Shown: in pieces, positions 51 to 46,093 of the stretch
Layout: each line of letters opens with the position of its first letter
Numbering within the stretch: position 1 is the stretch's first letter
Origin: Arcobacteraceae bacterium
GTDB taxonomy: Bacteria; Campylobacterota; Campylobacteria; Campylobacterales; Arcobacteraceae
Direction of reading: 5' to 3'
DNA length: 51,630 nucleotides
Assembly (NCBI GenBank): GCA_028687375.1
Contig: JAQUAG010000015.1
Span: 1 to 51,630 of the forward strand
The notes under the pieces: generated by a model
The model's database searches: none
The model's input: only the letters and a program-made list of their open reading frames with translations
What the model was told of the DNA's origin: nothing
Made by a program: the position numbers and the translations under genes

Positions 51-125
51 TCCGGATTAGCTCAGCGGTAGAGTAGATGACTGTTAATCATTTGGTCGCT
101 GGTTCGAACCCAGCATCCGGAGCCA
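51..125 (+). tRNA. tRNA-Asn (GTT)
   Basis: The 7-bp acceptor stem TCCGGAT/ATCCGGA closes, the anticodon loop CTGTTAA places GTT at 83-85, the T-arm GGTTCGAACCC is canonical, and the 3' CCA is encoded (123-125). It serves as the integration site for the elements that follow: its 3' part is repeated downstream at 22650-22699, and shorter pieces at 28094 and 36564. Confidence 0.97.
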
Positions 126-127
126 CT
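78..127 (+). repeat. att site 1 (attL of element 1, inside tRNA-Asn)
   Basis: A 50-bp stretch from the anticodon stem through the CCA end to the following CT is identical to 22650-22699. Integration here leaves the tRNA intact because the element supplies the same 3' half. Confidence 0.9.
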
Positions 128-5751: not shown

Positions 5752-8700
5752 TTATCTTGATATTGAGTGAGATTGTGTTTGTGTTTTATTTATATAAGTT
5801 TCGAGGAAATCCTCGTGTGCTTTGATTTGAGTCTTAATCAAAGATTGATTTGCTGTCATTCTTTCTATAATTTCAAGCATATCTCCCTTATCTCTTGTGT
5901 TACTGTTAGGTTCTCTTCTATAATCTCTTTCAAGGATGGTCCTTTGGATGGTGGAGTTGTCAATTTCTCTGATATTTCTGTTAATGCTTTCAATATCAAC
6001 TCTTGCTGCTTCATTAATTCGATTTGTTGCTTCACTAATTCCTGCAATAGCTCGTTTTGTAATGCTTTGTCTAAACTCATTTGTTACTTCCTCATCTTTG
6101 TGTAATTTAATATTTTCAACGATTTCCAATAAATCAACTTCTTCGGTTTGCCCTTGTATGTTTTCTAGATCTGACAATTTGTTTGAGAGTTCATTTGTAA
6201 ACTCTTTTAGATACTCCAAAGTAGAACTTTTTTTTGATTTTTCTGTTACTTTATCTTTCAAAAGTTCCAAATCATCAGTGAAAATTTTCACTGATTGCTT
6301 TGCTCTTGTTATTTGAACATAAAAAGAGTTATTTGTTGCCATTTGTGCATTTGCTGCAATAAGTACATGTTCCGCCGTTGCACCTTGTGATTTGTAGTCT
6401 GTTGTACAATAACCATAATCGAAATAGTTGTATTTGTTTGTGTCGATTATGATAGATTTTCCATCTTTATTGACGGTGATATTGTCCTTGTCAATATTGG
6501 TAATTATGGCGGTTTCACCATTTTTGACATTGTAATTTTTATCATTTTTAGTAAACATAATCTTTTCATTAATACCAAATTTCTTATCTGTAATATCATA
6601 AACAGATAGAAAATTTCCAAATTTTTTGATGTCAATTTCCCTTTCATCTTCTTTTGCTCCTTTAACTGTTAATTTTTGATTTTCTATATCAATATTTGTG
6701 ATTTTGTACTCACTTCCTACTTTAAGCCCTGGGATATTTTTGTTAGGACTTAATATTTGTTTTTCTTGATAATTTTGTGCAAAAAGTTTATCAACACCAT
6801 TTAATGATGGTGTTTCTCTTATCTTGAAGACTGTTTGATTTTCGTGATTATGAAAATCTCTTATTTTTTCATTGAGTTCATTTCTTACCTTATTAGTAGA
6901 TGCTATGATTAAAGCATCTGGTTGTTCTTTGTAAGCTTCAAAAATATCAGATACTAAATCCGTCGTTTCGCTAATAAGGGTATTTCCCTCTTTTTCTAAA
7001 AGTTCAAAGGCTAGGTTTGTGTTGCTTTGTTTTATTTGATGTACGACATCTTTCAAAATTTGTGTTTTTTGTCTCAAAGCTTCACTCATATTTGAGGTAC
7101 TCATACCATGATTTTGAAGTTGGTGAAATATCCCTCCAGCTGAGATTGAAGCAAATTGTTTTGTATCTCCTACTAAAACAACTCTCCCGTTTTCTGCCTT
7201 TGCTTTTTCTATTAGTTTGTCTATCTGTTTACTTCCTACAAGAGAGGCTTCATCAACTAGAAAGATTTTTGTTTTTTCCGTTTGTTTGATTGGTTTTGTT
7301 AAATAGGAATGTAGTGTTGTAGATTTTATACCACTCTGTTCTTCTAGTTCTCCAGCTGCTTTACCTGTAAAAGCAAGTCCAACGATTTCAAAATGCTCTT
7401 TTGGTAAATATTCGTTAAGTGCTTTCATCATAAAAGTTTTTCCTGTTCCCGCATCCCCTTGAATCCCTATAATAGAATCTTTTGTTGTTAAGATTTGAGA
7501 TAAGCTCTCTTTTTGTCCTTTGGTCATTGTGGAGTATTTCTCCTCAATGTAGCTTTCTACTTTATCAAGTTTTGAGATAGGTTTAACACTTCTTTGCCCT
7601 TGCCACATTTCACGGATTATTTTTTGTTCGATAGCTATCATTTCTTGTGTAGAATAACTATTATCATCAAGTTCGATTAAAGATGATTTTTCGTTTTTAA
7701 TATGTTCAAATAGTTCTTCTGATTTGATATTTCCCAGATTGATTTTTGTTGCAGTCATTACAACATCTTCAACAGAAAATACAGATTCTTGCTCTGTTAG
7801 GATTTCAGAAGCTTGTTTGATTAAATTGTCGAGGTCCTGTTTTTCTACTATGATTTGATTTTTGTTAGATACATTTAAAAGCAAATTATCTACATCAATA
7901 ATGGCTTCGGCTCGCTTGAGGTTTTCTTGATAGATTTTTTCTCTATCAACTTCTTTTTTTGATTGCCTTGAATTTAAAGTTGCCATTTGCTTAAGTTCGA
8001 CTAAACTCATTTTTGGATACTGCTGTTTAAGTTTTTCAACTTCATCTTTGATTTGTTCAGCTCGTTTTGAAAATTCATCAATCAAAGTCTTATCAATATC
8101 TTTAATCTCGAAAAGTCCTTGTTTAGTGTTTGTAATTTCAATATCAATCCCAAGTTCTTGTTTTAACAAAATCGCTAGCTCGCTTCTATAATACAGTCCG
8201 TTTGACATTTTGTTGTCATACAAGAGTTCGTTTGAGATAGATACCCATTCTCCGTCTTCTCTTTGAGTCAAATTTGCAATAACACAATGGGTATGAAGTG
8301 TTGGGTCTAGTTCACGGCTAGTATCGTGTTCAAACTTAGCAGCTATCATATTGTTTGTTTGTACTTGTATTCTATCTCCACCAGTCCTTACCCGTGTTTG
8401 AATATAGTTATCTTGAATATGTGTTAAAGTGCTGTTAACTGCTTTATCGTGAATATTCCGTATAGTTTGAGATAATGCTTTATCTCCTTTTGCTTCTGCC
8501 ATCTCTAAAAGAATTGATAAAGATTTTGGAGCTGTGAAAGTATGATCATATCCAGCTCTTGTTTTCCCTGTTTCTTTTTCTCTTCTTAAGTTATTACCGT
8601 TACTATCTCTACCATTTAGCATATTTATAAAGTTATCGTGTGTTAGCTCTTCGGTAAAGCCTAGATTTTTTATCGCCTTCCCAAAGAACTCACCTCGCTC

Positions 8701-8772
8701 TTTTGTATAGTAATTGTCTTGTTGGTAATATGTAGCAGCTTGTTCAATCGAAACATTTGATATAGATAACAT
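5752..8772 (-). CDS. traI: MobF-family conjugative relaxase-helicase (TraI/TrwC-like)
   Basis: 1006 residues. The N-terminal relaxase carries paired tyrosines Y15Y16 and Y21Y22, as in F TraI, and a three-histidine metal site H149, H160, H162 (FEHDTSRELDPTLHTH). A RecD-like superfamily 1 helicase follows, with Walker A GDAGTGKT near residue 440, a DEAS motif, and C-terminal motifs DYKSQGAT and VQITRAKQ. The family nicks oriT, stays covalently bound to the 5' end, and unwinds and pilots the strand into the recipient. AAAGG precedes the ATG. The gene follows the 84-aa gene by 9 bases. Its last residues TQSHSISR match the end of the primase at 11853, because the repeated cassette extends into both genes. 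Confidence 0.93.
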   Translation of the reverse strand: MLSISNVSIEQAATYYQQDNYYTKERGEFFGKAIKNLGFTEELTHDNFINMLNGRDSNGNNLRREKETGKTRAGYDHTFTAPKSLSILLEMAEAKGDKALSQTIRNIHDKAVNSTLTHIQDNYIQTRVRTGGDRIQVQTNNMIAAKFEHDTSRELDPTLHTHCVIANLTQREDGEWVSISNELLYDNKMSNGLYYRSELAILLKQELGIDIEITNTKQGLFEIKDIDKTLIDEFSKRAEQIKDEVEKLKQQYPKMSLVELKQMATLNSRQSKKEVDREKIYQENLKRAEAIIDVDNLLLNVSNKNQIIVEKQDLDNLIKQASEILTEQESVFSVEDVVMTATKINLGNIKSEELFEHIKNEKSSLIELDDNSYSTQEMIAIEQKIIREMWQGQRSVKPISKLDKVESYIEEKYSTMTKGQKESLSQILTTKDSIIGIQGDAGTGKTFMMKALNEYLPKEHFEIVGLAFTGKAAGELEEQSGIKSTTLHSYLTKPIKQTEKTKIFLVDEASLVGSKQIDKLIEKAKAENGRVVLVGDTKQFASISAGGIFHQLQNHGMSTSNMSEALRQKTQILKDVVHQIKQSNTNLAFELLEKEGNTLISETTDLVSDIFEAYKEQPDALIIASTNKVRNELNEKIRDFHNHENQTVFKIRETPSLNGVDKLFAQNYQEKQILSPNKNIPGLKVGSEYKITNIDIENQKLTVKGAKEDEREIDIKKFGNFLSVYDITDKKFGINEKIMFTKNDKNYNVKNGETAIITNIDKDNITVNKDGKSIIIDTNKYNYFDYGYCTTDYKSQGATAEHVLIAANAQMATNNSFYVQITRAKQSVKIFTDDLELLKDKVTEKSKKSSTLEYLKEFTNELSNKLSDLENIQGQTEEVDLLEIVENIKLHKDEEVTNEFRQSITKRAIAGISEATNRINEAARVDIESINRNIREIDNSTIQRTILERDYRREPNSNTRDKGDMLEIIERMTANQSLIKTQIKAHEDFLETYINKTQTQSHSISR
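5865..6080 (-). CDS. Candidate overprinted small coiled-coil protein inside the relaxase gene
   Basis: A 71-codon frame in another phase on the same strand, inside the region coding the relaxase C-terminus. GAGGAAG sits six bases before its ATG, a better ribosome site than most genes here have. The product looks protein-like: a heptad-patterned helix rich in Gln, Leu and Glu, then a TTPPSKGP linker and a second helix. It may be a real nested gene or a chance frame; composition and ribosome site are the only support. Confidence 0.35.
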   Translation of the reverse strand: MSLDKALQNELLQELVKQQIELMKQQELILKALTEISEKLTTPPSKGPSLKEIIEENLTVTQEIREICLKL

Positions 8773-8781
8773 ACTGAGCCT

Positions 8782-9036
8782 TTAAAATTTTAGATATTTC
8801 ATATCTTCAAACTTCACTTTTTTATCAGTATCAGCATCTCTTATATTTTTCTTTAACTTTTCAAGTGTTGTGTCTCCTGTTAATTTAATATTTGTGTAAT
8901 AATCAATCTCATGAAGTTCTCCTCTGCTTGACATACAAAGCAAGTCCCCGTCTTGGTCAACATAGAGTTCATCTTTTGTTATCTCAAAAATTTCTACCCC
9001 TTGGCAATCCTCTGCAAAAAGTTTTAGTGTTTCCAT
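8782..9036 (-). CDS. Small protein upstream of the relaxase, unknown
   Basis: 84 residues starting METLKLFAED; AAAGGATAAG lies just before this ATG. A longer frame exists upstream to 9177, but it would run through the hairpin and hexamer array and lacks a ribosome site. The product is acidic and has no membrane segment. It lies between the TGTCAA array and the relaxase, where MobF systems often encode a relaxosome accessory protein; that role is inferred from position only. The motif with Gly-Val after a short helix (AEDCQGVEI) loosely recalls the repeated domain in the proteins at 14318 and 14720. Confidence 0.6.
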   Translation of the reverse strand: METLKLFAEDCQGVEIFEITKDELYVDQDGDLLCMSSRGELHEIDYYTNIKLTGDTTLEKLKKNIRDADTDKKVKFEDMKYLKF

Positions 9037-9070
9037 AATTCTTATCCTTTTTTTTAAGTTCTTTTTTACG

Positions 9071-9105
9071 CCTGTTGCCCTTTGATTTATCAAGTGGGCG
9101 TCAGG
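9071..9105. other. Three-part hairpin beside the hexamer array
   Basis: CCTG/CAGG, GCCC/GGGC and TTGAT/ATCAA pair in nested order with 1-2 base internal loops and a TT apex, giving 13 base pairs over 35 bases. It lies upstream of the relaxase accessory gene and next to the TGTCAA array, so it may be part of oriT or a 5' leader structure. Confidence 0.5.
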
Positions 9106-9120
9106 TGTAGTGTTTTTATT

Positions 9121-9254
9121 TGTCAATTTTGTGTCAAAATTTGGCAAAATTTGGCAAACATTGTCAACTCGTGTCAATGTTTGTCATTCTCTGTCAAACT
9201 CTGTCAATTCTTGACAAAGTTTGGCAATTTGGTGTCAATGTTTGTCATTGTCAC
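9121..9254. repeat. Helically phased TGTCAA-type hexamer array (iteron/centromere/oriT candidate)
   Basis: Hexamers TGTCAA or one-base variants (TGGCAA, TGACAA, TGTCAT) start at 9121, 9132, 9142, 9152, 9162, 9172, 9182, 9192, 9202, 9212, 9222, 9233 and 9243, with a last TGTCAC at 9249. Ten consecutive copies are exactly 10 bp apart. Such spacing puts every site on one face of the helix, as in centromere arrays bound by ParB/ParR-type proteins, Rep iterons or relaxosome accessory sites. The array lies just after parA and before the relaxase operon. Confidence 0.8.
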
Positions 9255-9260
9255 CAATTT

Positions 9261-10040
9261 TTATACTAAAACTGAAAAATTTGATAAAATTTGTTTAGTT
9301 ACCAAATTTGCATCGATGGAATTGAGATATGAAGCAAATGATTGCTCGTATCCCTCGACATCATTATTTTTAATGATGTGTTCTTCTCTAAATTGATTTG
9401 CAGCTGTTTCAAAATCTAGCTCTTGAGATAATTTTGCTAAATCTCCAATATACATACCGTAAGCATCAGACAGCTCATAAAAAACTGAGTAAGGTAAGGA
9501 AGTGAACGGATAGTTAAATTGTTTTTTAAAGCTTGTAATTTGTCGTTTTTTATTGCCATAGAAAAACATAAATTCATCTTCTATTTTTTTAGGGTCAACC
9601 ACTTGATTTAGTACAAAATATATCTCTTTATCTTTCCCTATCAGTTCTATTGTTTCAACAACATTTTTAAGTGATTTGAGCGATTTAGAGACGGGGATAA
9701 TATACTTCACTTGAAAGTTTGTTTTTGCTAGCATATTTGACACATTAATAGCATCTGCTCCCCCACCAACATCTATTATGATGTTGTACTCTTTATCAAG
9801 ATAATCAAGTGTTAATTTAGCAAGGTTCATCATATCTTCTGTATTTGATATATTGATAGCTACATCTTCGTTAAAATATTCACTGTTTTCGTAGTTATAA
9901 GAAGAATTACACAAATCAAATTCATAGATTTTATATTTCTCGCCGTTTTCTGCTAAAGCATATGCTAAAGCTTTAGTGATTTCCGTTTTTCCAACTCCAC
10001 CTTTTGTGTTCATTACACAATACAAATTATTACTATTCAT
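9261..10040 (-). CDS. parA: ParA/MinD-type partition ATPase
   Basis: 259 residues. The deviant Walker A motif KGGVGKT at residues 13-19 and the IIDVGGGADA motif near residue 90 (Walker B position) identify a P-loop ATPase of the ParA family, which positions plasmid or element DNA along the nucleoid with a site-specific partner. GGAG precedes the ATG. The start overlaps the preceding HTH-like gene (10033-10407) by 8 bases, the usual coupling of partition genes. The phased hexamer array directly downstream is a candidate cognate centromere. Some conjugative systems use ParA-like proteins for relaxosome positioning, so that role is possible too. Confidence 0.88.
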   Translation of the reverse strand: MNSNNLYCVMNTKGGVGKTEITKALAYALAENGEKYKIYEFDLCNSSYNYENSEYFNEDVAINISNTEDMMNLAKLTLDYLDKEYNIIIDVGGGADAINVSNMLAKTNFQVKYIIPVSKSLKSLKNVVETIELIGKDKEIYFVLNQVVDPKKIEDEFMFFYGNKKRQITSFKKQFNYPFTSLPYSVFYELSDAYGMYIGDLAKLSQELDFETAANQFREEHIIKNNDVEGYEQSFASYLNSIDANLVTKQILSNFSVLV

Positions 10041-10407
10041 TTTTTTCTCCTATTTGTTTTGAAGCCTCTATCACATCGATTGGCTTTTTGTTTAAAAAGA
10101 AATCAACTGACTTCTTTTTCTTGTCATCGGCTGACGACACCGCAGTTTGAATTTTTTTTGCTGAGTCGCTTTGCTCCTCAGCAGGTTTTTTTAAAAAAGA
10201 ATTTTTGACTGTTAAGCTTTCTTTAAGGTTTAGAATTCTGTACACTGTTCTAACTGTTGTTTGAATATCATGAAATTTTTCACAATATTCCAAAATTGCA
10301 TCCGCATGTAAACCTTTAGAATACAGTTCTTTAATCTTATTTTCTAAAGAAAAAAGTTTTTTTGCTTTTCTCTTTTTTGCTTTTTTAATCCAATCCAATT
10401 CTTCCAT
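10033..10407 (-). CDS. Basic DNA-binding protein, possible ParA partner
   Basis: 124 residues. A lysine-rich N-terminus is followed by a predicted HTH (about 15-65: a helix with KELYSKG, then AILEYCEKF, then a TVRTVYRIL recognition-like helix) and a Ser/Lys-rich flexible tail. It overlaps parA by 8 bases. A small HTH protein next to ParA is typically the centromere-binding partner and repressor, and the hexamer array nearby would be its natural target. No family is certain; a plain transcription regulator is the alternative. Start supported by AAGGG. Confidence 0.65.
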   Translation of the reverse strand: MEELDWIKKAKKRKAKKLFSLENKIKELYSKGLHADAILEYCEKFHDIQTTVRTVYRILNLKESLTVKNSFLKKPAEEQSDSAKKIQTAVSSADDKKKKSVDFFLNKKPIDVIEASKQIGEKNE

Positions 10408-10751: not shown

Positions 10752-11435
10752 TTATTTTCTTGTTATTTTTATAGTGATTGGGTCGTTTTTGCTTTTTTGA
10801 TTTGCAACAGCTTTAAAATCCCTTGAAAGTTGCATTGACAAAACATCGCTTTCACCATCTTTTTTCTCCATACTAATATCAATAAAAGCCTTTTTAACAT
10901 TTTCAATATTTTCATCCTTAACAAAGTAAGACATATAGCCAAACATCAAGCAAGCACCTAAGACTATCCCAGCCCCAACATTAAAAATTCCGTAAGATTT
11001 TTTATACTTGGAAACATTACTGCTCAATTCCGCTGTCTTCTGGAGCAAAATATCTATCTCGTGATAGTTGTCTATTACATCTTGTAGATCCAAAACTTTT
11101 GCACCAAGTAAATCGTGTGTTTTTGATAGGCTCTCGGCTATCTTGTGAGTTTGCCCGTTTACTTTCATTAGTTCTGCTTTTGTAGAATCAAATAACCCCT
11201 CTGTAGTGTGTTTAAAATCAATATTTCGTAAAGTTTTTTCGACTTCTGTTTGAAACTTAACCGTATAGTCTTCAAAGTTAAGATATTTAATTTTGTCAAT
11301 TCGTTGTAAAAGCTCTGCAATATTGTCTGTTCTTGATAGTTTTTCAACTGCTTCATTTACATTTTTAGAAGCAAGCGACATAGCTGCTATTAAACTTTCG
11401 GCTGAATCAATATCGATTTTAATTTGATTTGGCAT
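10752..11435 (-). CDS. Coiled-coil protein with one membrane segment
   Basis: 227 residues. Helical coiled coil over about 10-140, one membrane segment near 150-172 (GIVLGACLMFGYMSYF), and a short C-terminal domain. AAAGGAGG before the ATG is one of the strongest ribosome sites in the element. The domain order resembles small conjugation accessory proteins such as TraM-like or mobilisation-associated membrane proteins, but there is no diagnostic motif. It lies 16 bases after the HTH gene in a run leading to parA and the relaxase. Confidence 0.6.
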   Translation of the reverse strand: MPNQIKIDIDSAESLIAAMSLASKNVNEAVEKLSRTDNIAELLQRIDKIKYLNFEDYTVKFQTEVEKTLRNIDFKHTTEGLFDSTKAELMKVNGQTHKIAESLSKTHDLLGAKVLDLQDVIDNYHEIDILLQKTAELSSNVSKYKKSYGIFNVGAGIVLGACLMFGYMSYFVKDENIENVKKAFIDISMEKKDGESDVLSMQLSRDFKAVANQKSKNDPITIKITRK

Positions 11436-15332: not shown

Positions 15333-17273
15333 TTAAGCCCATGAGCTTGACAATTGATCTGGTGTAAATTCAAAGAATCCTGGAAGTGCACCCCATAGTT
15401 CATGTTTGTTTATAAACTCAAATTTTGCAGTGTAATCATCAGCATCAATCATTGTAAACTCAGAGAAAATCGCTAGCCTTTGTTCCAAATTGAAAATTGA
15501 CATTTTGTTTGCTACTACTTCTTTATTTTGTGTTAAATCTTCAAAGAGGAGTTTCATTTCAGATTCTTTCAAGTTGTATTTTCTTTTAAATTTAAGCTTC
15601 GCATTGTCTGTAGTTAGTTTTTCGTATCTATCCCATAACTTATATCTCTCTTCTTTAGAAAGCTTCGTGTTGTCTTTGTAGAGGTCTGCAAAAGACATAT
15701 TGTCGAGGTCCTCTTGAGATAGTTCATACTTATCAGGATATTTTATTTTGTAAAATTCTGTAAAATCAGTATTTTTTAAATCATCGTGTTTTTGGATAAG
15801 TTCTGGCTGAGGGGTGTATGCTCTAAATAATATGTTATATGTTGGGATATAGCAAATGTACTCAAAATTTTTACCAAGTCCGTCTAACATTTCTTTTGTG
15901 ATTGCAGTACCTTTTTTTTGCTTTTTAGAGTTATCATCACTTCTTTTTTTAAAAAGTATTTTTTTCTCATTGGTTTCTTTATACCAGCTCTCATATTCCG
16001 TTTTTTCGATTAACTTCATTTTTGTATCATCTTCGATTGTGGAGAAAAATATCCAAGCAAAAGCTGATGATGTTAAATCCAATAGCAAATCTTTATCTGC
16101 TGGTAAATATTGCATACCAGCACAAAGAATCCCTCCGTGCCCTCTAATAAGCGTGTGTAAAATCCTTCTGGCTGCTTTATCAATAATTTCAACAAAACTC
16201 ATATACTCATCCAACTTGTAAAGTGTTATATTCGTTTTTGTTTCTGGTAACGATGTGTGATATTTTGCAAATGCAGCTGTGAATGCTGCAAAAAGAGGGG
16301 TGAGCTTATCTTGATATTTGGTTTGGTTAGAAAGAAATAGCTTTGCTTGGTTTTCCATTTTAAAAAACTCTTTGATAGTGAAAGTTTTTTTTCTATGGTC
16401 TTCAAGTTGCCAAGCTATCATTTCAAGAGGTTCAATCATGGACTGCATAGTTTGTGCCACCGACGCTTTAGGGTCTCTATCAGATAGTCCCTCCACTTCA
16501 TAAAAGAAATCTTTGTAAACTTTTATAAATAAAAGCCATTTTTGGGCTGGAGTAGCGTGTGAATAATGAGTTTTTACAGTGATCATCATTTCGTTAAAAA
16601 ATCGTTCTGCTGTTGCACTAAAAAAATCCACCTTATCGCCAATTGTGCCTTTAAGAAAATTCATAAAAAAAGTTTTAATAGTCCCTTCTTCTTCTGACAT
16701 AATGTCCCATATGTGCGATTTTTCAAGATATGGGTTTAATATAATTGAATTTCTGTCGTAAAAATATTTTTCAAAAGATATTTTAATCGAATGAATGATT
16801 GCTCTATCATAGAAATCTTGCTTGAGTAAGTGGTTAAAAAACTCTGTTTTCCCTGATTTCATTTTTCCAATAACAAGCATTGATTCGACAAGGTCTTGTT
16901 TATTTATTTTAATTTGAAGTTTTTCAAGGTACTTTTTATACCATTTTGGCATTTTTACTTTTTTAGCAAAATTTTCATCAACTCTGAAATCGCCTAAATA
17001 ACAGTCTCGTCTGTTTCCATCTCTCATAAACTTTTTTAGCTTGTCTATACTGCTCCATCTGTATCCATTCACTAGGTTTATTGGATTAGCTGCTGATGTG
17101 TTTGCAAATTTTGTGTACCACATCCCATTTTCTTGATAGCTATTAGGCACTAGGGCTTTAATTGCGAAATAAGACAAGGTTAACCCTCCGATTAATAAAA
17201 ATGGCTCTGGATTGCTCATAGCCACATAGAATGGTGCTTTTATCCATTGCATAAGTGAAAGATTATTTTCCAT
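15333..17273 (-). CDS. Type IV coupling protein (VirD4/TraD-like ATPase)
   Basis: 646 residues from ATG 17273, which has GAAGGAA upstream and overlaps the preceding gene by 11 bases; an ATG at 17300 is less likely. There is an N-terminal membrane segment (about 22-40). Walker A VIGKMKSGKTEF lies near residue 135, and the Walker B-like LYKLDEYM near 352 is followed by the RGHGG region typical of these ATPases. It has a long charged C-terminus. Coupling proteins are hexameric inner-membrane pumps that link the relaxosome to the type IV channel. It is the upstream gene of a run that ends with the primase. Confidence 0.85.
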   Translation of the reverse strand: MENNLSLMQWIKAPFYVAMSNPEPFLLIGGLTLSYFAIKALVPNSYQENGMWYTKFANTSAANPINLVNGYRWSSIDKLKKFMRDGNRRDCYLGDFRVDENFAKKVKMPKWYKKYLEKLQIKINKQDLVESMLVIGKMKSGKTEFFNHLLKQDFYDRAIIHSIKISFEKYFYDRNSIILNPYLEKSHIWDIMSEEEGTIKTFFMNFLKGTIGDKVDFFSATAERFFNEMMITVKTHYSHATPAQKWLLFIKVYKDFFYEVEGLSDRDPKASVAQTMQSMIEPLEMIAWQLEDHRKKTFTIKEFFKMENQAKLFLSNQTKYQDKLTPLFAAFTAAFAKYHTSLPETKTNITLYKLDEYMSFVEIIDKAARRILHTLIRGHGGILCAGMQYLPADKDLLLDLTSSAFAWIFFSTIEDDTKMKLIEKTEYESWYKETNEKKILFKKRSDDNSKKQKKGTAITKEMLDGLGKNFEYICYIPTYNILFRAYTPQPELIQKHDDLKNTDFTEFYKIKYPDKYELSQEDLDNMSFADLYKDNTKLSKEERYKLWDRYEKLTTDNAKLKFKRKYNLKESEMKLLFEDLTQNKEVVANKMSIFNLEQRLAIFSEFTMIDADDYTAKFEFINKHELWGALPGFFEFTPDQLSSSWA

Positions 17274-17475
17274 TTGTATTTCCTTCTTTTTTTTGAACAT
17301 AATTAAAAAAATAAGTTATGAACTCCTCTTTTGAAAATTCGTAATTGTTTTCATCCCTAAAAGCTTTCATTTCATCAAGATTTATTTTTTCAAAATCATC
17401 TGGTATGTTTTTGGCTTTTTTAAAAAGTTCAAAAAACTCTTCAAAGCTTATTTTTGTTGTTGGTATAGTTGCCAT
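17263..17475 (-). CDS. Small acidic protein upstream of the coupling protein
   Basis: 70 residues, acidic and helical (EEFFELFKKAKN and KEEFITYFF), no membrane segment. AAGGA precedes the ATG. It overlaps the coupling-protein start by 11 bases, so translation is probably coupled. No family recognised; an accessory of the coupling protein is possible. Confidence 0.55.
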   Translation of the reverse strand: MATIPTTKISFEEFFELFKKAKNIPDDFEKINLDEMKAFRDENNYEFSKEEFITYFFNYVQKKEGNTNGK

Positions 17476-17480
17476 TTTTA

Positions 17481-17735
17481 CTATCTTCCTTGTTGTAGTG
17501 TTTGGTTGTTTTCTTTTACTAAATGTTTTTTCATCACTTTGTAAAAATCAATCATTAGCCCTATTGCACTGATTGGTAGCTGCACTTGTGCAAATTGTTC
17601 ATTAACATCGTCAAGACTAAAACCCAAAGCATCTTCTAGGTCCTTTTGTAGTTTTTCATCTAAGTCTGTTTTTTTTAATAATTCTTCTGCTGCTAGTTCT
17701 CCAGCAGTTTTAACAACTTCTAATTTGATTCCCAT
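17481..17735 (-). CDS. Small helical protein, unknown
   Basis: 84 residues from ATG 17735, chosen because GGAGG lies eight bases before it; an upstream ATG at 17756 has no such site. It is helical with an acidic centre and a basic end. It overlaps the end of the replisome-organiser gene by 26 bases. No family recognised. Confidence 0.55.
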   Translation of the reverse strand: MGIKLEVVKTAGELAAEELLKKTDLDEKLQKDLEDALGFSLDDVNEQFAQVQLPISAIGLMIDFYKVMKKHLVKENNQTLQQGR

Positions 17736-18408
17736 CGAAATACCCTCCATTTTCAAATATTTTTAATTTTTGTTCAAGTTGCTCACAACTAAAAAATTTT
17801 GATATTTTGCTTTTCAAAATCTTTTTATCAAAAGAGAATAAAAGGATTTTTCCCTCTTCAATTTCTTCAATATTTTTGATAGTGATAAATTCAAAATCTT
17901 TACCCACATAATTACTATAGATAGAAGATAGAGAACACTCTCTCTTTAGAGAGAGTTCTCTCTCTATGTTGCCATTTGTTGCCGTGGTGTTGCATTGCAA
18001 CATTTTTTGTTCTTTTTTCCCTTTTCTTGACTTTTGAGAACGCTTTGTGCTCGCTGTTTCTGAGCCAATACAATTTTTTACATCTGTAAGAAGAAAACTA
18101 TCACTAGCAAGTTTTACTATCATCTTTTGTGCGTACAAATAATCCAATACAACTTGTATGTTTTTGCTATCTTCATCAATCTTCAATTCCAGTTCATCAG
18201 CTAGATTTTTTTCAATATTTTGAAACTTATACACACCATTATTTGTTATGGTTTCAAGCATAATTTTTAAAATAATAACGATGTATGTATCGCCCCCAGC
18301 CATTCGTTTTAACTTCTTGATTTTTGGGTCTTGAAAAAAGTTATTAAAAAGTTTCATCCAGTAATAACGAGGATTTTCCTTTTGTCTTTCAGCAGGATTA
18401 TTTTCCAC
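17710..18408 (-). CDS. Phage replisome organiser-like replication protein
   Basis: 232 residues with a GTG start preceded by AAGGAGG; it overlaps the upstream HTH gene by 11 bases. The N-terminal 110 residues match the phage replisome organiser N-terminal domain: YYWMKLFNNFFQDPKIKKLK, then AGGDTYIVIILKIML, then a NNGVY segment and a winged-helix part (VVLDYLYAQKMIV). This domain binds the origin and recruits the replicative helicase in Gram-positive phages. A basic linker and a separate C-terminal region follow. It implies the element can replicate after excision. Confidence 0.75.
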   Translation of the reverse strand: MENNPAERQKENPRYYWMKLFNNFFQDPKIKKLKRMAGGDTYIVIILKIMLETITNNGVYKFQNIEKNLADELELKIDEDSKNIQVVLDYLYAQKMIVKLASDSFLLTDVKNCIGSETASTKRSQKSRKGKKEQKMLQCNTTATNGNIERELSLKRECSLSSIYSNYVGKDFEFITIKNIEEIEEGKILLFSFDKKILKSKISKFFSCEQLEQKLKIFENGGYFDGNQIRSC

Positions 18409-21354: not shown

Positions 21355-22461
21355 CTAAAAACTTATTTTATTTGTTGCCAAGTGTCGTGTATCATCGATT
21401 AAATGAGCGTATCTCATTGTTGTTTCTATTTTCTTGTGTCCTAGCTGCTGCTTGATATGGAGTATATCTACACCAGCTTGAGCTAACCAACTCGCATGAG
21501 TATGTCTTAGGCTATGTGTAGTTATCTTGTTTCTCCCAGCTTTGCTGTTGTTTCTGATCAACTTATCAACTGCTGCCTGCCATTGTTTTGGCATCTGAAC
21601 ATATTGAGTTCCAAGAGAATTTGGAATAACAAGGTCCGTATTGTGTTTTTCAAGTTCAAGTTCTTGCAGGATTGATTTCACTCGGTCTGTTATTGTTATG
21701 TATCTGTCGTTTCCATCTTTGGTTTTTTTAAAATAAATTTGATTTATGTTCCAGTGGATATCGCCCCATGTTAGGCTACAAATTTCTATAAATCTCGCTC
21801 CTGTAAAAAGCATAAGGGCGGTTAATTGATAAAGTCTTTGATTATCTTGCTCTTGAAAATAATCCAAAATAGTTTTTGCTTGGTCTTTAGACAAAAAACC
21901 TAGTTGTTTGTTGTCTACCGTTGGCATTCTTACTTTACCGTTAGAAATCGGATTTGCAAATCCCTTTATAAGTTCGTTTCTGATGGCATGATTAAAGATT
22001 GCTCTTGTGATAGCTAGGATATTTTCAACGGTTCGTGGTGAACTGTCTTTGAGCTTCTCGTTTTTTAGATCTTCAAAGTCTTTTGCTTTGAGTTGCTTTA
22101 CATCTTGTTTGTGAAATCTTTGCAAATGATTTAGAAAGATACCTCTATCTTTTTCCCAGCTCTTTTTATTATTTTGAGCCCATTTTTCGTAATCAAGATA
22201 AATATCTTCTAGGGTTATTTTCTTTTTGGTCATTAAAATTTTTGGAAGTTCTTCGTTTGTTCTGATGAGATGTTTTGCTTGGATTAAATAATCATAGGCA
22301 TCTTTTACCGTAAAATTTGATTGCTTTGTTTTGATACCAACTTTCTTTTTAACAACATTTCCTGTATCATCTCTATAATTAATGTAGTAAGCTGTGTTTC
22401 CATTTTTTAGTTCATTTACCCAGACACCATCATATTTTCCACCAACACTTTTTAAACCCAT
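21355..22461 (-). CDS. int: Tyrosine integrase of element 1
   Basis: 368 residues, full length for the phage-integrase family. A SAM-like/arm-binding N-terminal region (about 1-170) is followed by the catalytic domain with Arg in TGARFIEICSLTW, the HSLRHTHASW box, LGHKKIETT and the nucleophile in MRYAHL. It catalyses site-specific recombination between attP and the tRNA-Asn 3' end. AGAGG precedes the ATG. The gene points inward from the right end, 39 bases from the arm repeat. It is clearly different from the integrases of elements 2 and 3, consistent with its different arm sequences. Confidence 0.93.
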   Translation of the reverse strand: MGLKSVGGKYDGVWVNELKNGNTAYYINYRDDTGNVVKKKVGIKTKQSNFTVKDAYDYLIQAKHLIRTNEELPKILMTKKKITLEDIYLDYEKWAQNNKKSWEKDRGIFLNHLQRFHKQDVKQLKAKDFEDLKNEKLKDSSPRTVENILAITRAIFNHAIRNELIKGFANPISNGKVRMPTVDNKQLGFLSKDQAKTILDYFQEQDNQRLYQLTALMLFTGARFIEICSLTWGDIHWNINQIYFKKTKDGNDRYITITDRVKSILQELELEKHNTDLVIPNSLGTQYVQMPKQWQAAVDKLIRNNSKAGRNKITTHSLRHTHASWLAQAGVDILHIKQQLGHKKIETTMRYAHLIDDTRHLATNKISF

Positions 22462-22649: not shown

Positions 22650-22699
22650 TGACTGTTAATCATTTGGTCGCTGGTTCGAACCCAGCATCCGGAGCCACT
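22650..22699 (+). repeat. att site 2 (right end of element 1, left end of element 2)
   Basis: 50-bp copy of the tRNA-Asn 3' part. The 5' half of a tRNA is absent, so this is not a second tRNA gene. It continues with CAAATAAATCCCTAAAA, which is also found after att sites 3 and 4 with small changes. Confidence 0.9.
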
Positions 22700-22726
22700 T
22701 CAAATAAATCCCTAAAAATAGCATTC

Positions 22727-23875
22727 TTAAGCAACTTTTTTAAACTTCGGTGCCAATTTGGTGACACTTTGGAACATTGAATCATTCAAGAAACTAGCTC
22801 TTTTTTTTCTATCCCTTTTAATATATCTAGCATATTTGGATAATGTCATAGTAGCATCTTTATGTCCCAACATATTTGATACCCAAAGCATATCTTCATT
22901 ATTAGATAGCATCAATGTAGCAAAACTATGTCGAGTGTGATAAATTGGTCTATACTCTAAACCAACAGCTTTTAAAACTTTTTTCCAATGAGTATCTCTA
23001 ATTCTTTTAATATCGTAGTAATGTTCATTATCAGAATTTAGAAAAATATAAGAATCTAAGTGATCCGTTAGTTTATATTGTTCTTTCAAATATGGGATTA
23101 AAGTATCAAGGATATCAAGTGTCCTAACACTATTTACTGTTTTTGGTACATCAATATCACCCATTTTAATTCTTCTATTAATATGTATCTCATTATTAAT
23201 AAAATCTACATCCGACCATTTTAAACCAATTAACTCCCCACTTCTCAATCCTGTAAAAAATGCAGTTGCATAAAAGTTTTTAAATTGACCCTCTGCATGA
23301 GTTAAAATTGCTTGAATCTCATGAAGAGTAAAAGGATTAATGTCAGTTTGTGAAATCTTTGGCGATTTTACAACCATCAAAGGATTTTTATCAATTATTT
23401 CATCTTTTATCGCATCATTGAACATCGTGAATAATACAGAGCGAATAGTATGTATTCTTGCAGGACTAATCCCTTTATCTAAAAGATAATTTTGCCAAAG
23501 TTCTATATGTGATGGTTTTATCTCATTTAGTTTTTTATTTTGGAAAAAATCTTTTATATGGTTTTGAAAAATTCCTATACAATCATTTTGTGTTTGAATT
23601 TTTCTTTTATGCTTATGAAGTTCAAGAGATTTTACTATAAACTCATCTACTGTTGGTATCTCTTTTGTGTTTTTAAATAACTCGTCATTTTTCATTTTGA
23701 CTAACAACTCTGGAAAAATTTCATTTTCTACAAATTTTCGATTGGCTTTTGTGTCATCCAATCCCAATGGTTTTCTAACTCTTTTTCCATTTTGAGTATA
23801 AGAATACCATAGCTCAATTTTAATAACTTTTCCAGTTTTATCTTTTCTTACTTTTTTACTTATGTTAAATTTCAT
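22727..23875 (-). CDS. int: Tyrosine integrase of element 2
   Basis: 382 residues. The catalytic Arg lies in TGLRSGELIGLKW, then HTRHSFATLML, LGHKDATMTL and the tyrosine in SKYARYI. The N-terminal part has an AP2-like arm-binding region (KVIKIELWYSYTQNGKRVRKPLG). AAAGGA precedes the ATG. It is closely similar along its length to the integrase of element 3 (28187), including the block HKRKIQTQNDCIGIFQNHIK against HKSTRTASTHNDCIGIYKNH, so the two elements share an integration module. Its 3' end overlaps the left GGTGCCAATTT arm repeat. Confidence 0.93.
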   Translation of the reverse strand: MKFNISKKVRKDKTGKVIKIELWYSYTQNGKRVRKPLGLDDTKANRKFVENEIFPELLVKMKNDELFKNTKEIPTVDEFIVKSLELHKHKRKIQTQNDCIGIFQNHIKDFFQNKKLNEIKPSHIELWQNYLLDKGISPARIHTIRSVLFTMFNDAIKDEIIDKNPLMVVKSPKISQTDINPFTLHEIQAILTHAEGQFKNFYATAFFTGLRSGELIGLKWSDVDFINNEIHINRRIKMGDIDVPKTVNSVRTLDILDTLIPYLKEQYKLTDHLDSYIFLNSDNEHYYDIKRIRDTHWKKVLKAVGLEYRPIYHTRHSFATLMLSNNEDMLWVSNMLGHKDATMTLSKYARYIKRDRKKRASFLNDSMFQSVTKLAPKFKKVA

Positions 23876-28093: not shown

Positions 28094-28112
28094 CCCAGCA
28101 TCCGGAGCCACT
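28094..28112 (+). repeat. att site 3 (boundary of elements 2 and 3)
   Basis: CCCAGCATCCGGAGCCACT, the last 19 bases of the att core, then CAAAACAAATCCCTAAAA, similar to the flank of att sites 2 and 4. Confidence 0.85.
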
Positions 28113-28161
28113 CAAAACAAATCCCTAAAACAAGCCTTTTTCAAACGAAATTTTCTCCAAC

Positions 28162-28186: not shown

Positions 28187-29278
28187 TCAAGCAATTTTTT
28201 GAAGAAATATAGCTCTATCTTTATTGGCTCTTTTTATATATCGTGCATACTTTGATAATGTCATCGTAGAGTTGATATGACCTAACATATTTGATACCCA
28301 AAGTATATCTTCATTATTTTCTATCATTACAGTTGCAAATGTATGTCTTGTCTGATAAATTGTTCTATATTCTATTTCTGCTTTTTCCAAAGCTTTTTTC
28401 CAATGAGTATTTCTAACTCGTTTAATATCATATAGATGTTCATTGTTATCATTTAAAAAAACATAACTTTTTTTTGCACCTGTTATTTTGTATTGATTTT
28501 TCAAATAAGGCAAAAGTGCATCCAAAATATCAATACTTCTAATACTACTATCTGTTTTAGGAGATGAAATTAGACCCATTTTTATAGTTCGTTCTATATA
28601 GATTTGTTTTCTTTCAAAATCAATATCTTCCCATTTTAGACCTATCATCTCTCCACTTCTTGCACCAGTAAAAAATGCAAGAGCTATAAAATTTTTAACC
28701 CATCCAGTTGTAACTAAAAGAATCTTTTGAATCTCTTCGAATGAGAATGGATAAACTTTAGTTTGAGAAATTCTAGGAGTTCTTACTAATGTAAAAGGAT
28801 TTTTAGAAATTATCTCATCTTCCAAAGCATCTTTATACATTAAAGTCATAACATTTCTAATAGTATGAATTCTAGCGGGACTTAAACCTTTTTCTAAAAG
28901 CGTATTTTGCCAAATTTTAATTTCTGATGGTTTCAATTTATCCAACATAATATGACCAAAATGTTCTTTTATATGGTTTTTATATATCCCGATACAATCA
29001 TTATGAGTTGATGCAGTTCTAGTTGATTTATGCATTAAAAATGATTTATGAATATACTCATCTATCAAAGGTATTTTATTTTTCTCTTCATTGTTAAAGA
29101 ACTCTCCAGTATGTACTTTTAAAAGCATTTGTGGAATTATTTGTGTTGTTGCTAACTTTCTATTAGGTTTCGTATCTTCTAAGTTTAAAGGCTTCCGAAT
29201 ATTCTCTCCATTCATCGAAAACCTTATCCAAAGTTTACTACCTCTATTAAAAAGTTTTGGTTGCGTCATTGTGTTCAT
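28187..29278 (-). CDS. int: Tyrosine integrase of element 3
   Basis: 363 residues, paralogue of the element 2 integrase. Catalytic Arg in TGARSGEMIGLKW, then YQTRHTFATVMI, LGHINSTMTL and the tyrosine in SKYARYI. AAAGGATTACATAA precedes the ATG. Like its relative it lies at the left end of its element beside att site 3 and reads towards it. Confidence 0.93.
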   Translation of the reverse strand: MNTMTQPKLFNRGSKLWIRFSMNGENIRKPLNLEDTKPNRKLATTQIIPQMLLKVHTGEFFNNEEKNKIPLIDEYIHKSFLMHKSTRTASTHNDCIGIYKNHIKEHFGHIMLDKLKPSEIKIWQNTLLEKGLSPARIHTIRNVMTLMYKDALEDEIISKNPFTLVRTPRISQTKVYPFSFEEIQKILLVTTGWVKNFIALAFFTGARSGEMIGLKWEDIDFERKQIYIERTIKMGLISSPKTDSSIRSIDILDALLPYLKNQYKITGAKKSYVFLNDNNEHLYDIKRVRNTHWKKALEKAEIEYRTIYQTRHTFATVMIENNEDILWVSNMLGHINSTMTLSKYARYIKRANKDRAIFLQKIA

Positions 29279-36563: not shown

Positions 36564-36582
36564 CCCAGCATCCAGAGCCACT
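36564..36582 (+). repeat. att site 4 (right end of the island)
   Basis: CCCAGCATCCAGAGCCACT, one mismatch to the other copies, followed by CAAATAAATCCCTAAAA as at att site 2. It marks the junction with chromosome-like sequence. Confidence 0.8.
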
Positions 36583-36676
36583 TCAAATAAATCCCTAAAA
36601 TAAAGATTTAATAAAAGACAAAAAAGTATAGGCACATTTATTGCATACACTAAAATAAACCTCTAAAAGTGATTCC

Positions 36677-44998: not shown

Positions 44999-46093
44999 CT
45001 ATCCTTTCCGATTCAACTCAGCTTCAATATCTTCAATAGCTGGTAAACTTCCCCTTAACTCTTCTGGCACAATATGCGTTAAATGATACTCTGATATCCC
45101 CATAGGTTTATGTATATCACTCAAACTATATTCTACCACTACCTTATCTTTACTTTTACACAACAATATCCCAATAGTGGGTTTATCCTCTACTGTTTTG
45201 ATTTGTTCATCAACTGCTTTAATATAAAAGTTTAGTTTCCCAGCAAACTCTGGTTCAAAATCAACAGTTTTTAACTCAACTACAACATAGCAGTGCATCC
45301 TTATATGGTAGAAAAGTAAGTCAATATAAAAATCTTTTTGCCCAACTTTAAGATTTTTTTGTTTCCCAACAAATGCAAACCCACTTCCAAGTTCTAATAA
45401 AAAACTTGTAATATGTTCCAATAAACCTGATTCTAGTTCTTTCTCTTTAAAGTTTTCACTTAAAGTTAAAAAGTCGAAGTTGTATGGGTCTTTTATAAGT
45501 TCATTTGCTAGGTCTGATTGTTCTTTTGGGAGAGTGATTTCAAAATTTGATATAGCTTTGCCACTTCTTGTATAAAGGTCACTCTCTATTTGATGAACCA
45601 AAACACTTCTGCTCCAACCATTTTCTATGGTTTTATTTACATAAAAAAGTGCTTCTTGGGTATCTTTACATTTTGAGATTATTTGTACATTGTGTCCCCA
45701 AGGGATTTGTGTCAATTGTGGTACAACTTGTTCCACAATTTCATTGTCTAAAAGGGCAACAAGCTGTTGCCCTTTTTCATTGTCTAAATTGGCAACAACT
45801 TGTTGCCAATTTGAATAAAATAGATACCATTGTTTTATATATTTAATATTTCTATATGAAAATCCCTTCATATCAGGAAATTCTCTCATCAAATCATCAC
45901 TAAGTTGTTGTAAAAATCCACTTCCCCAAGTACTATTTTTTTGTTTCTCAACTATCTCATTGCCAAGTTCCCAATAAAACTCAAGTAATACTGTATTTAC
46001 TTTTATAGAAGCTTTTATTTGAGCTTGTTTGAGTTTAGATTTCAACTCTTTCAACCAAAAGTTATATTCACTTGATTTTATAATACTGTTCAT
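44999..46093 (-). CDS. YhcG/DUF1016 family PDDEXK nuclease
   Basis: 364 residues. The N-terminal DUF1016 helical domain (about 1-150, LEFYWELGNEIVEKQ, FPDMKGFSYRNIKYIKQWY) is followed by the nuclease domain with IDLLFYH and VVVELKTVDFEPE, which gives the D...E-x-K core. Around residues 93-126 the protein has a repetitive insert (QQVVANLDNEKGQQLVALL...), encoded by three tandem palindromes. Related proteins occur in restriction and defence contexts; the cellular role is not settled. It stands alone on the minus strand. Confidence 0.88.
   Translation of the reverse strand: MNSIIKSSEYNFWLKELKSKLKQAQIKASIKVNTVLLEFYWELGNEIVEKQKNSTWGSGFLQQLSDDLMREFPDMKGFSYRNIKYIKQWYLFYSNWQQVVANLDNEKGQQLVALLDNEIVEQVVPQLTQIPWGHNVQIISKCKDTQEALFYVNKTIENGWSRSVLVHQIESDLYTRSGKAISNFEITLPKEQSDLANELIKDPYNFDFLTLSENFKEKELESGLLEHITSFLLELGSGFAFVGKQKNLKVGQKDFYIDLLFYHIRMHCYVVVELKTVDFEPEFAGKLNFYIKAVDEQIKTVEDKPTIGILLCKSKDKVVVEYSLSDIHKPMGISEYHLTHIVPEELRGSLPAIEDIEAELNRKG
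45714..45811. repeat. Three tandem palindromes inside the YhcG coding sequence
   Basis: Palindrome 1 (45714-45740, arms AATTGTGG/CCACAATT), palindrome 2 (45751-45775, AAAGGGCAACA/TGTTGCCCTTT) and palindrome 3 (45787-45811, AATTGGCAACAA/TTGTTGCCAATT) are separated by spacers that share TTCATTGTCTA or TCATTGTCTA. Reading frame is kept throughout. Confidence 0.85.

Follow-up and report, generated by a model that had tools for sequence, protein, structure and literature searches.

The window, i.e., the whole stretch of 51,630 nucleotides that was analysed, carries near its left end an integrated element of 22.6 kb bounded by 50-bp direct repeats at a tRNA-Asn gene. The first copy, attL, is at positions 78 to 127 (plus strand), over the 3' end of the tRNA gene (51–125), and the second, attR, at 22650–22699 (plus strand). 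A tyrosine integrase (21355–22461, minus strand; Pfam Phage_integrase, 1.5e-30) adjoins the right end of the element. Other genes on the minus strand encode a MOBF (TrwC/TraI-type) relaxase-helicase (5752–8772; Pfam TrwC, 1.6e-74, NCBIfam MobF, 1.7e-75), a type IV coupling protein (15333–17300; TrwB_AAD_bind, Pfam, 1.1e-17), a ParA-like ATPase with the motif KGGVGKT (9261–10040; Pfam and NCBIfam matches) and a small HTH protein of 124 residues (10033–10407); the reading frames that an earlier note had named for the relaxase, ParA and the 124-residue protein are indeed present. A protein of 85 residues, encoded at 8782–9039 (minus strand) between the predicted oriT and the relaxase, gave no match in a family search, and a replisome-organiser-like protein is encoded at 17710–18408. 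A scan that covered part of the element's ORFs recognised no gene of the VirB4 type; therefore, the element may be mobilizable rather than self-transmissible.

Other features of the window were recorded along the way. A protein of 227 residues, encoded at 10752–11435 (minus strand) upstream of the HTH and ParA genes, shows by eye a coiled-coil-like region and a likely membrane segment, and proteins that look similar precede the HTH-ParA pair in relatives. Additional copies of the tRNA-Asn 3' end, at 22681–22728, 28094–28141 and 36564–36611, are accompanied by integrases at 22727–23875 and 28187–29278, so that two further elements probably follow in tandem at this tRNA gene. Within an ORF at 44999–46093 there is a 36-bp tandem repeat (45739–45807) with the inverted repeat AAGGGCAACAACCTGTTGCCCTT.

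The phased array and the predicted nic

Between the relaxase and parA, at positions 9121–9254, the element contains a phased array. It is formed by 13 TGNCA units (9121–9248) and a fourteenth, out of phase, at 9249; the units start at 9121, 9132, 9142, 9152, 9162, 9172, 9182, 9192, 9202, 9212, 9222, 9233, 9243 and 9249. The first step is of 11 bp, the ten units from 9132 to 9222 are exactly 10 bp apart, as the earlier note had described, and the last steps are of 11, 10 and 6 bp. On the minus strand the unit reads TTG(A/C)CA; TG.CA is invariant in 13 of 13 units, the middle base is A in nine, C in three and T in one, and the bases that follow the unit are variable. The thirteen phased repeats claimed in that note are real and lie beyond chance, given that the longest chain of TGNCA with steps of 10 or 11 bp has 13 members and never exceeded three when the 51.6 kb of the window were dinucleotide-shuffled 200 times. 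A motif-free scan for a periodicity of 10–11 bp, using segments of 140 bp moved in steps of 20, ranked the segment 9121–9260 first in the 51.6 kb with a z of 9.3 (runner-up, 3.9). That all sites face one side of the DNA, as it had also been put, holds approximately: the mean step is 10.17 bp (122 bp in 12 steps) against 10.5 bp per turn, hence by arithmetic the sites rotate gradually about the helix axis, by roughly 140 degrees from one end of the array to the other.

On its other side the array is bordered by a hairpin and the word GGTGT, an arrangement that resembles the nic of the F plasmid, for which the TraI substrate is GCAAAAACTTGTTTTTGCGTGGGGTGT^GGT (PMC5422253). The hairpin (GCCC..TTGA....TCAA..GGGC; 9077–9099, plus strand) was detected by DNA folding on the 5' side of nic. 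The predicted nic core GGTGT is at 9104–9108 (plus strand), within GGGCGTCAGGTGT (9096–9108) and in the same place as the core of relatives. Nicking would occur after 9108 on the plus strand, 12 bp ahead of the first unit of the array. If nic is at 9108/9109, as predicted, the stb-like genes (HTH and ParA) would be on its 3' or leading side, and the array would likewise belong to the side that enters the recipient first.

Arrays in related elements

Homologues of the MobF relaxase, with about 30–47% identity to that of the window, were found in genomes that we read as Campylobacterota from their gene content and from a weak match of the window ParA to a Caminibacter plasmid. In most of the relatives examined, a ParA ATPase of the same family and a small HTH protein adjoin the relaxase, and the interval between them holds a phased array of 10–11 bp, then the hairpin and then a GGTGT-type core. 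At the position of the core the word is GGTGT, GGTGC or similar; the hairpin precedes it in most relatives, and L068 and L089 have GGTGT without a clear hairpin. The repeat word differs from one element to another; examples are TTGACA (window), GTGAAC (L053), GTAACC (L054), GC(N)ACC (L055), TTGAGAA (L061), TTGTCAA (L063) and TCAAGAA (L060). Conservation next to homologous parA genes therefore extends to the position and the 10–11-bp phasing of the array, and not to its word.

When whole loci were scanned in the motif-free manner, the array was the top periodic segment in 14 of the 16 loci with an HTH-ParA pair (this window, L052, L053, L054, L055, L060, L061, L063, L067, L068, L069, L070, L080 and L089). 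The arrays of the other two are weak, that of L059 ranking second and that of L064 not first. In L062, L065 and L066, which have MobF without HTH-ParA beside the relaxase, the top periodic segments are elsewhere. A strict test for chains of 6-mers misses degenerate arrays or those of mixed spacing (L052, L068 and L070), which the motif-free scan finds; array borders were picked by eye in one comparison, and the whole-locus scans are independent of those borders. A similar array was also seen in the Citrobacter braakii plasmid pF217-2 (L117, 2998–3434), between mobC and a StbA-like gene, as the top segment of the 7.2 kb read; the layout thus occurs with another type of relaxase.

Three loci separate the array from the relaxase. 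In L060 and L068 the array stays with the HTH-ParA genes, the relaxase being about 16 and 7.5 kb away, respectively; in L089 the array lies upstream of the HTH gene and the MobF relaxase of that genome is more than 10 kb away. In L060, the hairpin and GGTGT core are also beside the array, far from the relaxase. From the layouts of L060 and L068, it follows that the array goes with HTH-ParA and, mostly, with nic. These loci bear on the possibility that the array is an operator or promoter region in which TTGACA-like units control the operon of the 85-residue protein and the relaxase. The array of the window is upstream of this operon, and its unit on the minus strand equals a -35 hexamer; nevertheless, the distance to the relaxase in L060 and L068 and the quite different repeat words of other elements make this explanation very unlikely. 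The option of replication iterons, raised in the earlier note, found no support. Direct repeats in a mobile element that encodes a replisome-organiser-like protein could suggest it, but this gene is 8 kb from the array, and in relatives, several of which lack a gene of this kind in the examined stretch, the array goes with HTH-ParA and nic and is not tied to a replication initiator; an iteron function is thus most improbable.

Which of the neighbouring proteins reads the array is suggested by six genomes of one genus, in which a block of approx. 350 bp, made up of the array and the half of the HTH gene that encodes the DNA-binding part, exists in two types that are about 70% alike (G454 and G348 versus G311, G331, G289 and G475). 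This cassette begins roughly halfway along the HTH gene, runs through the array and ends just before nic; its identity is mostly 95–99% within a type and about 66–80% between types. The flanking ParA and relaxase genes are mostly 80–95% alike across the six genomes and group differently from the cassette types, and nic and its hairpin are nearly identical in both. In the region taken by eye to be the recognition helix, one type has SRQSVKKFL and the other SRQQVQKFL, and the arrays are made of GTAACC and GC(N)ACC. By co-inheritance the array is therefore associated with the HTH protein and not with ParA or the relaxase, although a linkage over 350 bp could also come from a single recombination event. 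Since the array stays with HTH-ParA and varies as a two-type cassette with the HTH gene, the small HTH protein (124 residues in the window) is its likely binder. The version in the window is divergent, with 16–25% identity to other members of the family; a single-sequence search of 104 family genomes retrieved only the protein itself, so that a family profile was needed. A search of PDB sequences with the HTH profile gave nothing convincing, and AlphaFold without an alignment produced a poor model of the 124-residue protein (pLDDT of 53).

The ParA partner is itself variable. In four relatives (G235, G415, G413 and G080) it lacks the N-terminal P-loop; the protein begins at the second strand and a P-loop, KGGVGKS/T, appears at residues 230–236 of about 250. 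When compared with an ordinary ParA profile, each of the four gave two matches in swapped order, and when the tail was moved to the front a single full-length match with a higher score was obtained (L053, 6449–7195, plus strand; L061, 8883–9638, minus; L063, 9257–10015, minus; L064, 8266–9027, plus). At the level of sequence, these proteins are circular permutations of ParA, for which no report was found in the open-licence literature searched. In searches of viral contigs, the window ParA had no match and the alignment of permuted proteins had one, L115, which is an ordinary ParA.

Similarity to the Stb module of R388

The aligned HTH family (A1) matches StbA of plasmid R388 alone with an hhalign E-value of 3e-4, and a five-sequence StbA alignment with 7e-14; the latter value is partly circular, because four of the five sequences were collected with a Campylobacterota HTH query, and the former is not. 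In 100 column shuffles the best value was 0.17. The ParA family matches R388 StbB with an E-value of 1e-9. With the same periodicity metric, the stbDRs of R388 were the top segment of 12 kb. In this IncW plasmid (MOBF11), 9-bp repeats with a period of 11 bp lie 3' of nic and are bound by StbA; without StbA the plasmid is transferred 50-fold more and becomes unstable, and without StbB it is no longer transferred, StbB being dispensable for stability (PMC3098194). The window shares with the R388 stbABC-stbDR region a StbB-like ATPase of the ParA superfamily, an adjacent gene for a small StbA-like HTH protein, direct repeats by oriT (of about 11 bp in R388; mostly 10-bp steps in the window and 10–11 bp in relatives), which in the window would be on the leading side given the predicted nic, and a neighbouring MOBF relaxase (PMC3098194). 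In contrast with R388, the element has an F-like nic, a classical KGGVGK motif, an integrated state and a Campylobacterota host, and the repeat words are element-specific. The layout also differs: in R388 the repeats surround the stb promoter, whereas here the HTH-ParA operon points toward oriT and the array is behind parA or the HTH gene, being downstream of parA in the window and upstream of the HTH gene only in L060, L068 and L089. The promoter position was treated as a feature of R388 and not as one that defines the family.

Other systems share part of this arrangement. The F oriT contains sites for TraY and TraM, and is not known to have an HTH-ParA pair there; in R1, the small protein ParR is a ribbon-helix-helix protein and the ATPase, ParM, is actin-like. 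What F has in common with the window is a hairpin followed by the nic GCGTGGGGTGT^GG (PMC5422253), and what R1 has in common is parC, where a small protein binds direct repeats, in R1 two sets of five (PMC4949242). The F relaxase group is absent from those listed with the Stb module in a published survey (PMC3098194). According to the same work, RP4 TraK/TraL and pTF-FC2 MobC/MobD are related to StbA/StbB, are located next to nic and include a KGGXXK ATPase (PMC3098194); these plasmids differ in having MOBP relaxases.

Centromeres often consist of phased repeats to which small proteins bind, and the array could be a classical parABS site at which HTH-ParA acts in partition, its closeness to oriT being incidental. 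The persistence of HTH-ParA and the array together where the relaxase is elsewhere agrees with this possibility. Against it, nearly all relatives, including L060, have next to the array a core that resembles nic, in most cases with a hairpin; an element integrated in a tRNA gene would need partition only after excision; and StbB is dispensable for the stability of R388. A centromere function alone is thus unlikely. The array is inside the predicted oriT, by nic, and goes with HTH-ParA, so that two options that the earlier note had kept apart, a site for ParA and its HTH partner and a relaxosome platform, merge into one.

We consider it quite probable, by analogy, that the array and HTH-ParA form a Campylobacterota variant of the StbA/StbB/stbDR module, placed at an F-like oriT and working like the stbDRs of R388. 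The array would be the leading-side part of oriT, where the HTH protein would bind one unit per helical turn and so assemble, at least one turn away from nic, a multimeric nucleoprotein complex. The StbB-like ATPase would act on this complex and, as R388 suggests, the complex could determine whether the excised element is held or positioned or is instead docked to the transfer apparatus; in this sense we infer a function in both stability and transfer.

From these results an oriT can be predicted for MOBF elements across Campylobacterota, a family on which no oriT paper was found in the open-licence literature searched. More tentatively, and with somewhat less than even confidence, it can be proposed that the phased array and the DNA-binding half of its HTH protein are a cassette that sets specificity and can be exchanged while the adjoining nic stays constant; such a cassette would keep separate the transfer or positioning identities of related elements, driven in some lineages by the permuted ParA. 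The natural pairs of protein and site, including the two-type swap within one genus, may reveal how DNA is recognised by proteins of the StbA type and how a balance is struck between segregation and transfer.
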